Shown here: piece after piece, positions 1 through 49,850 of the stretch | How the letters are laid out: each line of letters starts with the position of its first letter | Position numbering within the stretch: position 1 is the stretch's first letter | Origin: Oscillospiraceae bacterium | GTDB taxonomy: Bacteria > Bacillota > Clostridia > Oscillospirales > Ruminococcaceae | DNA: 50,042 nt | NCBI GenBank assembly: GCA_017547525.1 | Contig: JAFYPL010000034.1 | Span: forward strand, 1 to 50,042 | Direction of reading: 5' to 3' | Notes under the pieces: generated by a model | The model's input: only the letters and a program-made list of their open reading frames with translations | Database searches by the model: none | Told to the model about the DNA's origin: nothing | Position numbers and translations under genes: made by a program

Positions 1-56
1 AGAGCAGGGGACTGAAAATCCCCGTGTCGTTGGTTCGATTCCGACCGGAGGCACCA
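1..56 (+). tRNA. tRNA-Phe (GAA), 5' end missing
   Basis: The window opens inside this tRNA. The anticodon stem pairs GGGGA (7-11) with TCCCC (19-23) around a 7-base loop whose anticodon is GAA at 14-16. The T arm pairs 29-33 with 41-45 around TTCGATT. The acceptor 3' strand is 46-52, then discriminator A and an encoded CCA at 54-56. The acceptor 5' strand and part of the D arm lie before the window. It is the first visible member of a tRNA array. Confidence 0.93.
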
Positions 57-64
57 CATAATAA

Positions 65-140
65 GCGGGTTTAGCTCATCTGGTAGAGCGCCACCTTGCC
101 AAGGTGGAGGTAGCGAGTTCGAGCCTCGTAACCCGCTCCA
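65..140 (+). tRNA. tRNA-Gly (GCC)
   Basis: This is a complete cloverleaf. The acceptor GCGGGTT (65-71) pairs with AACCCGC (130-136). The anticodon stem CCACC/GGTGG encloses loop TTGCCAA, with anticodon GCC at 98-100. CCA is encoded at 138-140. It lies 8 bases after tRNA-Phe in the same array. Confidence 0.95.
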
Positions 141-150
141 TAATATTGTT

Positions 151-225
<75 letters not shown>

Positions 226-3896: not shown

Positions 3897-4574
3897 ATGA
3901 AAAAATGCATTATTAATTTTGAAGATAAAGATATAATCGAAAAAATGAGGGAACTGGGGTATGACTGTATACCAGTTATTAAATCTGATTGTGTCAGCGG
4001 GCCAATATCGCAGCATAGCGATGTTTTATATCTGAAAACAGATAATAACGAAATTATAGTTTCTGCCTGTCAGAAGCCAAATTTCCGTTATCTGGAAGAG
4101 TCTGGATATCATATAGTGGTATGTGATATTCTCAAACCAGGATATAGAACAGAATCATGGCTGAATTTTATAGTTAATAATGACTACATTATCTATAATC
4201 CTGAAACCGCATATAAAATAATTGTAGATAAAAATAAAATAGTTGTAAAGCAGGGCTATACCAGATGCTCAACAATATGTGTAAACAGTAGAGCATATAT
4301 AACTGATGATGAAAATATTTTTAATACCTTGTTAAAAAATAATTTGGATTGTCTTAAAATAGAAAAAGGTGATATAAAACTGGAAGGATATGACTACGGA
4401 TTTATTGGTGGGGCATCTGTAAAACTGAATGACAATGAAATATTATTTTTTGGTGATTTAAAAAATAAAAAGGATAAATCAAATGTTATCAGCTTTTTGA
4501 AAAAGTATAATGTAAAACCAATATTTATAGAAAATAAAGAAATGCACGATATAGGTTCGGTATTGATTTTATAA
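3897..4574 (+). CDS. GME-fold-like protein (resembles DUF6873)
   Basis: This 225-residue soluble protein matches my memory of the clostridial DUF6873 family, described as having the fold of guanidine-group-modifying enzymes (penteins). Recognisable segments are QGYTRCSTICVN (119-130), GFIGGASVKL (168-177), FFGD (184-187) and the C-terminal HDIGSVL (217-223). Candidate catalytic residues by analogy are Cys124 or Cys128 and His217, but I cannot confirm them. No activity is established for the family that I know of. It starts 3 bases after the permease stop with its own AGGGA ribosome site, so it is the third gene of the envelope cluster. Composition is AT-rich like its two upstream neighbours. 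Confidence 0.6.
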   Translation: MKKCIINFEDKDIIEKMRELGYDCIPVIKSDCVSGPISQHSDVLYLKTDNNEIIVSACQKPNFRYLEESGYHIVVCDILKPGYRTESWLNFIVNNDYIIYNPETAYKIIVDKNKIVVKQGYTRCSTICVNSRAYITDDENIFNTLLKNNLDCLKIEKGDIKLEGYDYGFIGGASVKLNDNEILFFGDLKNKKDKSNVISFLKKYNVKPIFIENKEMHDIGSVLIL

Positions 4575-4583
4575 GGATATCAA

Positions 4584-4613
4584 TTGACATAGCACGGGGT
4601 ACCGTGCTATAAT
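4584..4613 (+). promoter_or_regulatory. Near-consensus promoter with palindromic operator in the spacer
   Basis: TTGACA (4584-4589) and TATAAT (4608-4613) are both perfect consensus hexamers, 18 bases apart. A palindrome with 9-base arms, ATAGCACGG (4589-4597) and CCGTGCTAT (4602-4610) around GGTA, fills the spacer and touches both hexamers. A protein bound there would block polymerase, or could act like a MerR-type spacer-distorting activator. The palindrome could also be a weak terminator for the gene ending at 4574. The promoter faces the recombinase gene at 4792, leaving a leader of about 170 bases. Confidence 0.8.
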
Positions 4614-4625
4614 TTATTTGAAATT

Positions 4626-4653
4626 ATTTCGCTAAATAAAAATTTAGTGAAAT
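4626..4653 (+). promoter_or_regulatory. Hairpin at the start of the xerD leader
   Basis: The arms ATTTCGCTAAAT (4626-4637) and ATTTAGTGAAAT (4642-4653) pair over 12 bases with one G-T wobble around a 4-base loop. It would form near the 5' end of the transcript made from the promoter at 4584-4613, so RNA stabilisation is one possible role. The rest of the leader, 4654-4780, is AT-rich and I see no open frame or other structure in it. Confidence 0.5.
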
Positions 4654-4791
4654 ATAGGGTAGTAAAAAATGCGCTTTTAGCCAATTTGACCTGTTGTTTG
4701 ATATTTATTTAAATCATTATTAATGTATTATTTAATATATATATTTTTTAATTAAAATATTTCATTATTATATTTAATCTGGAGATTTTTT

Positions 4792-5796
4792 ATGGCTAAC
4801 ACTAAACCTGTTATTTATTCTGATTACTCTGACAGTCCGCAGTTTCTGAAAGAATTTCTTTATTATATGCAAACCATTAAAGGATTATCTGTAAGATCTG
4901 TTGAGTCTTATTATATTGATCTTAAACTGTTTTTCCGTTATGTTTTGCAAAAACGTAATGGTCACATTGATAATGATAAAATCAGTGAAATATCTATAAT
5001 TAATCTGGATATTGAATTTTTGTCAAATATTTCTCAATCTGATGTTCTTGATTTTTTATTTTTTGTAATGAACGAACGCGGTAATTCCGCTGCTGCCAGA
5101 GCAAGAAAATTAAGCAGTCTCCGTGGCTTTTTCAAGTACATGACTAAAAAAACCAATCAGCTTGAATTTAATCCTACTGAAAATATCGAACTACCGCAAA
5201 ACAAAAAACGCCTGCCAAAATATCTTACTTTGGAACAGAGCGTTGATTTGCTTGCTAATATAGAAACTTCTTTTACCAGTCGTGATTTCTGTATCATAAT
5301 GCTTTTTATTAACTGCGGTATGCGTTTATCAGAACTGACTGGAATTGACCTTAAAGATATTCGTGATGATACTTTAAGAATCATAGGCAAAGGTAATAAA
5401 GAGCGCACTGTTTATCTGAACAGCGCATGTATGCGGGCTCTTGACGATTATATAAAAGAAAGAAATACTATTGTTTCTCCTGTTACTGAACCAGCTTTGT
5501 TTATATCAAAGACCCGTAAAAACAGACTTTCTACACGCAGCATCCAGCTGGTAGTTGAACGCTGTCTTAAACTTGCCGGCCTTGATGGTCAGGGCTACTC
5601 TGCCCACAAACTTCGTCATACTGCAGCAACATTACTGTACCGCTCTGGCGGAGCTGATATGTTGGCACTGAAAGAAATTCTTGGCCATGAACATGTGTCT
5701 ACAACAGAGATTTACACCCATATTTCAGACGAAGAACTTAAAAAAGCGGCTAAATCTTCCCCACTTTCAAATTTTAAAAAATCAAAAAAAGAATAA
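4792..5796 (+). CDS. xerD: XerD-type tyrosine recombinase
   Basis: This is a site-specific recombinase of the kind that resolves chromosome dimers at dif near the terminus. It has an N-terminal SAM-like core-binding domain (about 15-120) and a C-terminal catalytic domain. The catalytic set is complete: Arg178 in CGMRLSEL, Lys200 in GKGNKER, His272 and Arg275 in AHKLRH, His299 in LGHEH, and Tyr308 in IYTH. At 334 residues it is longer than the usual 295-300; the extra length is an insertion at about residues 55-80 of the core-binding domain. The ribosome site GGAG is 7 bases before the ATG. There are no phage or integron genes nearby, so a housekeeping role is likelier than an integrase role. 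XerC and XerD cannot be told apart here. Confidence 0.85.
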   Translation: MANTKPVIYSDYSDSPQFLKEFLYYMQTIKGLSVRSVESYYIDLKLFFRYVLQKRNGHIDNDKISEISIINLDIEFLSNISQSDVLDFLFFVMNERGNSAAARARKLSSLRGFFKYMTKKTNQLEFNPTENIELPQNKKRLPKYLTLEQSVDLLANIETSFTSRDFCIIMLFINCGMRLSELTGIDLKDIRDDTLRIIGKGNKERTVYLNSACMRALDDYIKERNTIVSPVTEPALFISKTRKNRLSTRSIQLVVERCLKLAGLDGQGYSAHKLRHTAATLLYRSGGADMLALKEILGHEHVSTTEIYTHISDEELKKAAKSSPLSNFKKSKKE

Positions 5797-5808: not shown

Positions 5809-6381
5809 TTATCCTATGAGATTCTGCAGAATATTTTTTATTAAAAAGTCTATCCGGTAAATTGTAATAACAGATAAAATGTATATAAAAACCGTACGTT
5901 TATCTCTTTTCTTGTCTTCCCTGTCCCTTAATATATCGTATATAAGTATACTACAATATATAAGAAATATAAAAGAGGCTGCCGTATTACGAAGAATATA
6001 ATCACATGTCAGAGAAAACAAACCCAAGCCGGATACGTAATCGTTTGATATTATCGCTCCGTTCTGCAACGATATAACAAATGGAAGGCATATGCACAAA
6101 CCTCTGAGTATACCAGAATATTTTATCAGTAAAGCAATAAGAAAAAATATAATATCACGTATTAAAAACGTTTTAAAACGACGGAAATCGCCATTATATG
6201 CGGTTATAGATGAATCTGTAACACCAGTTACACTTTTTACAAAATCCAAATTTAGTGCGTTTTTAATTGTCATATAACATCCCGCTGACAATCCTAAAAA
6301 ATAGACAATAATAATTATGAAAAAAATGATATTTTTATAATTATATCTAATATGTTTGTTTTTTGCAGGTTTTCTTATCAT
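5809..6381 (-). CDS. Small polytopic membrane protein, function unknown
   Basis: This 190-residue protein has a basic N-terminus, a first membrane helix (about 17-38), an extracytoplasmic stretch, then three or four more helices and a basic cytoplasmic segment (DREDKKRDKR) before the last helix. Overall shape and length resemble SpoIIM, and spoIIM neighbours xerD in Bacillus, but I see no diagnostic SpoIIM residues, so this is only a suggestion. It lies 23 bases downstream of the TIGR04086-like gene on the same strand and converges with xerD. A weak AGGA lies 11 bases upstream of the ATG. Confidence 0.5.
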   Translation of the reverse strand: MIRKPAKNKHIRYNYKNIIFFIIIIVYFLGLSAGCYMTIKNALNLDFVKSVTGVTDSSITAYNGDFRRFKTFLIRDIIFFLIALLIKYSGILRGLCICLPFVISLQNGAIISNDYVSGLGLFSLTCDYILRNTAASFIFLIYCSILIYDILRDREDKKRDKRTVFIYILSVITIYRIDFLIKNILQNLIG

Positions 6382-10751: not shown

Positions 10752-10787
10752 AAAACAAGCCGTTGGTATCAACGGCTTGTTTTTTTA
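10752..10787. terminator. Bidirectional terminator between capA-like gene and yraN
   Basis: AAAACAAGCCGTTG (10752-10765) and CAACGGCTTGTTTT (10770-10783) form a 14-base-pair stem with a 4-base loop and T tracts on both strands. It serves the convergent genes on either side, and its edge overlaps the last codons of yraN. Confidence 0.9.
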
Positions 10788-49762: not shown

Positions 49763-49850
49763 GCCGCTGTGGTGGAATAGGCAGACACAAGGGACTTAAA
49801 ATCCCTCGCCCTAATACGGCGTACCGGTTCGACCCCGGTCAGCGGCACCA
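49763..49850 (+). tRNA. tRNA-Leu (UAA)
   Basis: This is a class II tRNA with a long variable arm. The acceptor GCCGCTG (49763-49769) pairs with CAGCGGC (49840-49846). The anticodon stem AGGGA/TCCCT encloses CTTAAAA, giving anticodon TAA at 49797-49799. CCA is encoded at 49848-49850. It is a likely substrate for MiaA/MiaB. Confidence 0.95.

Follow-up and report, generated by a model that had tools for sequence, protein, structure and literature searches.

A putative mirror-symmetric dif site between a promoter and an adjacent xer gene in an Oscillospiraceae bacterium

The locus and its features

The window, by which we mean the whole stretch of 50,042 nucleotides that was analysed (contig JAFYPL010000034.1 of assembly GCA_017547525.1), contains an intergenic region between the gene of a DUF6873 family protein and a gene for a Xer-type tyrosine recombinase, named xer in the following. 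The features of this region are compiled in Table 1. The stop codon of the DUF6873 gene is located 10 nt 5' of the -35 hexamer of a promoter whose spacer is occupied by a palindrome; further downstream follow a hairpin, which we propose to be a dif site, a G-rich motif and the likely ribosome-binding site of xer. tRNA genes were found at both ends of the window (1-222, truncated by the window start, and 49763-49847), and a search of Rfam at the gathering threshold reported tRNAs only. A 14-pair hairpin at 10752-10783 was classified as terminator-like on both strands by the scan.

Table 1. Features of the xer locus (positions refer to the window)
Feature	Position	Strand	Basis
Upstream gene, DUF6873 family protein, 225 aa	3897..4574	+	Open reading frame; PF21778, E 1.8e-55
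Predicted promoter: -35 TTGACA (4584-4589), 18-nt spacer, -10 TATAAT (4608-4613), TG before the -10	4584..4613	+	Hexamer match; retained in G009; spacing in relatives
Palindrome ATAGCACGG-GGTA-CCGTGCTAT, merged with the promoter and proposed to act as terminator hairpin for the upstream transcript	4589..4610	+	Folds and genus comparison; termination presumed
Proposed dif site ATTTCGCTAAA-TAAAAA-TTTAGTGAAAT	4626..4653		Half-sites 4626-4636 and 4643-4653, centre 4637-4642; no strand
AGGGTAG, variant of the conserved G-rich dif flank in this genome	4656..4662	+	Comparison of loci
TGGAGA, likely ribosome-binding site of xer	4780..4785	+	Read from the letters
xer, Xer-type tyrosine recombinase, 334 aa, below the XerC, XerD, XerA and XerS cut-offs	4792..5796	+	Open reading frame; profile scores

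The putative dif site and the replication terminus

An earlier note on this DNA had described a hairpin of about 12 base pairs downstream of the -10 hexamer and had assigned it to the leader of xer. The hairpin as such was confirmed: it starts 12 nt past the -10, and its arms (4625-4637 and 4642-4654) are complementary at 12 of 13 positions and form, in addition, one G-T wobble. Its assignment to the leader was given up in favour of a dif site, because inserts found in relatives end inside the hairpin, because the GC skew switches at this place, and because the element is inverted relative to xer at some loci. Positions 4626-4653 constitute a 28-bp mirror site of the form 11-6-11 with one unmatched pair, and the arrangement typical of Xer/dif systems, i.e. 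two inverted half-sites around a short centre within about 28 bp, was found in the window as well as in relatives. Judged from these comparisons, the element very probably represents the chromosomal dif site, used by the adjacent Xer recombinase.

In the window, the GC skew is +0.16 left of the site; on the right it is -0.08 over the next 4.6 kb (to 9.3 kb) and -0.13 up to 41 kb, beyond which, for a few kb, values are close to zero or weakly positive. The chromosome-wide situation can be seen in the near-complete genome G035 (main contig 3.76 Mb), where all 11 sampled stretches before the site have a positive skew and all nine after it a negative one, which places the site at the switch. Among 38 loci with usable flanks, the skew is higher on the left than on the right in 37, the exception being L117, where it is opposite; a strict change from plus to minus was counted by eye in 28 of them and is lacking in 10. 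These counts omit L133 and L142, which have only 310 and 7 nt, respectively, of flank on one side. Located at the replication terminus, the dif site at 4626-4653 would be the substrate of the Xer enzyme encoded beside it, which would resolve chromosome dimers there.

The conservation of the site was assessed with the pattern ATTTCGCTAAAT-N4-ATTTAGCGAAAT. Allowing for up to three mismatches, it was found in 123 of 247 genomes of the family (101 of the 185 good ones), mostly at one place, and had no match in the other 124; the reversed pattern, which served as a control, gave none in the genome rows. The genome to which the window belongs (G000) contains a single place at three mismatches, and a few relatives contain two or three. 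Within the genus, 11 of 16 genomes possess the site at three mismatches, and G003 and G015 do so at four. From the 123 matching genomes, 40 loci of up to 20 kb each were chosen among the matches listed. At 38 of these, the same xer gene starts between -11 and 274 nt downstream of the site; the two exceptions are G101, with no xer within the stretch, and G254, where the contig ends. The distance between site and xer is about 10.8 kb in G026. Extra dif-like places were noted in G004, G008, G033, G028 and G195. Additional site-like sequences lie elsewhere in the genome at L158 (G004), L159 (G008) and L150 (G012), with four of them within about 340 bp at L159. At L131 (G152), the site is extended on both sides to a palindrome of about 56 bp.

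A further 35 loci were inspected up to 600 nt 5' of xer: 10 belong to the family, 22 to other families within the order, and three are named contigs. By eye, a recognisable 11-6-11 mirror site was identified at 19 of them, 13 times with all 11 pairs, and none was recognised within this distance at the other 16; among 500 stretches of 640 nt drawn at random from the window, 17 reached 11 pairs. These 19 sites share the middle AAAT-N4-ATTT and differ in their outer letters.

A G-rich flank accompanies the site on one side. For 22 loci, xer is separated from the site by more than 60 nt. Following the site, a G occupies position four at 21 of them, and positions five and six at 19 each; an A precedes these Gs at 19, and a further A and G are present at 17 and 16. 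At L112 (G178), L129 (G112) and L133 (G234), the A-rich centre as well as the G-rich flank lies on the opposite strand, i.e. the site is inverted as a unit relative to xer. The flank thus turns round together with the site and is kept at more than 60 nt from xer, which argues that it belongs to the site and not to the translation of xer; for the same reasons, the idea that it is merely the ribosome-binding site of xer was rejected. We infer that the flank might give a direction to the otherwise symmetric site; the locus also raises the testable question of how such a dif site obtains its direction. That the hairpin is instead an RNA leader element of xer, e.g. an attenuator or a stability hairpin, is very improbable: it would be transcribed from the preceding promoter and does fold, but inserts begin and end inside it, it sits at the skew switch, and at the three loci just named it is inverted, with its centre and flank, relative to the gene.

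The inserts resemble phages. In G009, the nearest relative, whose Xer is 88% identical, promoter and palindrome are retained but lie about 4.7 kb farther from xer. The insert comprises 4,642 bp, and both of its ends are inside the hairpin (left junction ATTTCGCTAAATAATAGATAAGCGAGAAT, right junction ATTTCGCTAAATAAAAATTTAGTGAAAT); it encodes a Rep protein (PF01719) and has a weak match to Zot (23.4 bits; cut-off 20.3). G015 carries a different insert of 4,823 bp, which begins and ends inside the site and also has Rep and Zot-like (21.5 bits) matches. In G001, Rep and Zot-like genes adjoin xer and continue to the contig end, which leaves one end of the insert visible. Compared with PHROGs, the Zot-like frames of G009 and G001 were again annotated as Zot-like and that of G015 as 'head morphogenesis', all of them weakly. 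No integrase was detected in two Pfam scans of open reading frames of the G009 and G015 inserts, one of 6 frames and one of 10, the smallest overlapping frames being left out. Rep and Zot are carried by filamentous phages. According to the accessible text of two papers, such phages integrate at dif by means of the host's Xer enzymes (PMC5666396, PMC7307601); the dif site would be a natural entry point for phage-like elements. The opposite assignment, namely that Xer and its site are the integrase and the attachment site of a mobile element and do not serve host dimer resolution, is likewise very improbable: it could draw on the phage-like inserts in G009, G015 and G001, on another element in G002 and on the extra dif-like places of a few genomes, but 51 of 61 relatives, among them 43 of the 45 good ones, match the window's Xer with 266 bits or more (counted by eye), and the site occupies the terminus whether an insert is present or not.

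Some further observations concern these elements. The loci L074 (G009), L145 (G015) and L200 (G001) represent three different inserts at one place, between the xer promoter and xer; those of G009 and G015 leave the site with xer and separate the gene from its promoter. L207, a viral contig with an insert beside a xer-like gene, contains two copies (4-141 and 5835-5972) of the 110 nt that precede the site, identical at 90 of 110 positions, as if the element had taken along a copy of the region upstream of xer. At L053 (G002), a smaller element (204-2439) with frames that appear by eye to be Rep-like and integrase-like is bounded by a second site-like sequence on one side and by the site 5' of xer on the other.

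Promoter and spacer palindrome

Two perfect hexamers 18 nt apart had been reported earlier, and they are indeed present: all 12 hexamer bases agree with a sigma-70 type promoter (TTGACA, 16-18 nt, TATAAT). Such a promoter had also been called unusual for a housekeeping recombinase, a view that we do not share, as the 1.5-Mb genome contains 44 perfect copies of TTGACA-16..19-TATAAT, compared with five of the reversed control. In G009, both hexamers and both palindrome arms are identical letter by letter within an aligned upstream stretch of about 70% identity. The fold of the promoter region has a z value of -4.5 (relative to 300 dinucleotide shuffles). Both observations speak against a chance arrangement.

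For a comparison across relatives, 60 unique upstream stretches of 90 nt were collected, the two loci without xer being excluded; for L045 (G009) and L047 (G015), the stretch lying beyond the insert was substituted, here and in the terminator count below. A promoter with at least 9 of 12 hexamer bases ends 9-16 nt 5' of the site at 20 loci (shuffles 0.92, maximum 4) and one with at least 10 at 17 loci (shuffles 0.13, maximum 2). By the former rule, 40 loci have no promoter at that place, and eight of the 20 positive ones stem from one genus and are therefore not independent. We regard the predicted promoter of the window, together with equally distant ones in relatives, as well supported by these data. 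Given this distance, dif would lie at the start of transcription. RNA synthesis would begin a few bases before dif, so that the xer transcript would have dif at its extreme 5' end, and an Xer protein bound to dif would cover the first transcribed bases and could lower its own expression. Such an autoregulation of xer is a possibility to which we give somewhat less than even chances.

Also confirmed was the claim of the earlier note that a palindrome with 9-base arms fills the spacer and touches both hexamers: at its left end it includes the final A of the -35, at its right end the initial three bases of the -10. In a genome-wide search, it proved to be the sole copy at up to three mismatches. 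It is identical in G009 except for one change in the loop, and the comparison can be extended to 12 loci of the genus. Eight of these have a promoter at this place; in six (G000, G009, G003, G004, G007, G014) an inverted repeat reaches with its right arm into the -10, and in the other two (G010, G015) an ordinary terminator just 5' of the -35 takes the place of the palindrome. The six hairpins have fold z values from -2.1 to -6.2, and in all except G007 the sense strand folds more stably than the antisense strand. Between the perfect arms lie 4 to 23 nt, and the arms differ in their letters. According to an alignment of arms entered by hand from the predicted folds, the pairs covary: at the fourth pair, G003 has C-G where all others have G-C, and three pair types occur at the eighth and four at the ninth. 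The variable letters, the variable arm distance and the covariation are more compatible with an RNA hairpin than with a protein-binding site of fixed spacing. As the palindrome spans the promoter itself, the hairpin can only form in transcripts arriving from upstream, which points to a terminator.

The window's hairpin has nine pairs, five of them G-C, and the tail AATTTATTTG; it was listed by a loose terminator scan, which calls four of the six genus hairpins and misses those of G003 and G007. Within 150 nt 5' of the site, terminator-like hairpins were counted at 15 of 59 loci (59 stretches of 150 nt were kept; the two loci without xer were excluded), versus seven on the antisense strand, 1.3 in shuffles (maximum 4) and 4 of 58 in a control region 650-800 nt upstream. 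From these findings we favour, with moderate confidence, a terminator hairpin of the upstream DUF6873 transcript that has merged with the promoter of xer. A terminator for the gene at 3897 had been mentioned in the earlier note as an alternative; the genus comparison speaks for it, but the U tract is interrupted by an A.

The note itself had preferred tight control of xer by a regulator binding to the palindrome, and had named a lack of conservation in relatives as evidence to the contrary. The palindrome is in fact not conserved outside the genus but is so within it. An operator would mean that a dimeric repressor occupies ATAGCAC..GTGCTAT, which lies between the hexamers, and switches xer off. 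In agreement with this, the palindrome fills the spacer, is preserved in G009 apart from the loop, and its AGCAC/GTGCT core recurs in G004, G007 and G014; GTGCT, on the other hand, also creates an extended -10, the genome contains a single copy, the arms vary in distance from 4 to 23 nt and in sequence (ACCAC/GTGGT in G003), G-T wobbles are present, the sense strand is the more stable one in five of six cases, and no such palindrome is found outside the genus. With an ordinary terminator in two species, control by a regulator is not well supported, and we consider an operator improbable, to the same degree as the possibility that the palindrome is neither terminator nor operator. Two specific operator types were rejected. 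TAGCAC..GTGCTA resembles the CIRCE/HrcA operator, from which the palindrome differs in spacing and by its single genomic copy. Promoters of the MerR type have spacers of 19-20 nt, and the spacer here has 18 nt.

The recombinase and related Xer systems

All NCBIfam Xer models that matched gave scores below their cut-offs: XerC, the nearest one, 210.6 (335.15), XerD 187.2 (329.6), XerS 140.4 (267) and XerA, the archaeal type model, 177.5 (220). The residues R, K, H-x-x-R, H and Y, which we take to be the catalytic motif of Xer-type tyrosine recombinases, align with those of E. coli XerD. Some match exists in all 45 good genomes, but in two of them, G012 and G029, the best one is too weak to represent this gene. 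As the letters of the two half-sites are almost identical, a single enzyme probably acts on both; and since the protein is below every Xer cut-off and some relatives have only one Xer, a single-recombinase system is likely in this family. For the locus itself, we consider a single-recombinase Xer/dif module the probable arrangement, with a complication from relatives that possess an extra XerD and might use a second enzyme. A dif site worked by two enzymes, the window's Xer in the role of XerC plus a second one, appears unlikely. It would fit the nearest model, XerC (210.6 bits), and the XerD-like protein of about 300 bits (at least 295) that occurs additionally in 11 of 61 relatives, 10 of them among the 24 from the rest of the order; but in the family this protein is present in 1 of 37 (G016), the genomes G003, G018 and G045 have a single XerD-model match in all, and the window's genome, which is 79% complete, contains one strong Xer match, followed by a XerC match of 69 bits. 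The rule that an extra XerD means no mirror site holds only loosely, as a mirror site exists in 4 of the 11 relatives with the extra protein and in 12 of 21 without it (the three named contigs are not included).

Our literature search, which subscription journals mostly lay beyond, found no described dif for this bacterial group. Kono et al. (PMC3025954) predicted dif in 97 of 100 Firmicutes, and their main text, as far as accessible, names neither 'Faecalibacterium' nor 'Ruminococc'. For these gut bacteria, which form a large group, the locus offers a dif candidate that can be tested, together with the enzyme likely to act on it. Beyond this, we tentatively suggest, as an idea more likely wrong than right, that a separate lineage of single-recombinase dimer resolution extends across the order to which Gemmiger- and Anaerofilum-like gut bacteria belong, in which a mirror dif lies on its own transcription start, binding of Xer to dif sets the Xer level, and a one-sided AGGGGAG flank gives direction.

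In the accessible descriptions of the single-recombinase systems compared here, the combination of near-full symmetry, adjacency to the gene, a polar flank and a promoter ending just before the site does not appear. The two-enzyme system XerC/XerD-dif of E. coli and B. subtilis shares the 28 bp, the 11-6-11 form, the position at the terminus and the use by filamentous phages, as outlined in the available parts of PMC5357621 and PMC5666396; it relies, however, on two enzymes and two different half-sites, whereas the half-sites of the window are nearly alike and its Xer is below both cut-offs. XerS/difSL of streptococci and lactococci is described in the consulted sections of PMC2731167 and PMC5357621 as one recombinase with a gene-linked site at the terminus, which is the arrangement proposed here; difSL, according to these sections, has 31 bp and partial symmetry, in contrast to the near-symmetric 28 bp of our site, and the window's Xer reaches 140 bits against the XerS cut-off of 267. 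XerL/dif of Legionellales was found via a mobile element integrating at dif and, in the accessible text of PMC9765430, likewise has one recombinase and uninterrupted mirror arms; this description sets XerL apart, as dif and xerL are more than 400 kb distant in L. pneumophila, whereas dif and xer are neighbours in the window. XerH/difH of Helicobacter and Campylobacter also uses one recombinase, with a partly symmetric site that is near the gene in most species (PMC2731167, accessible part). The window's site is similarly placed but has different letters, and the solved XerH is a weaker match to the window's Xer (E 1.3e-19) than XerD (1.2e-31) and XerA (7.9e-23).
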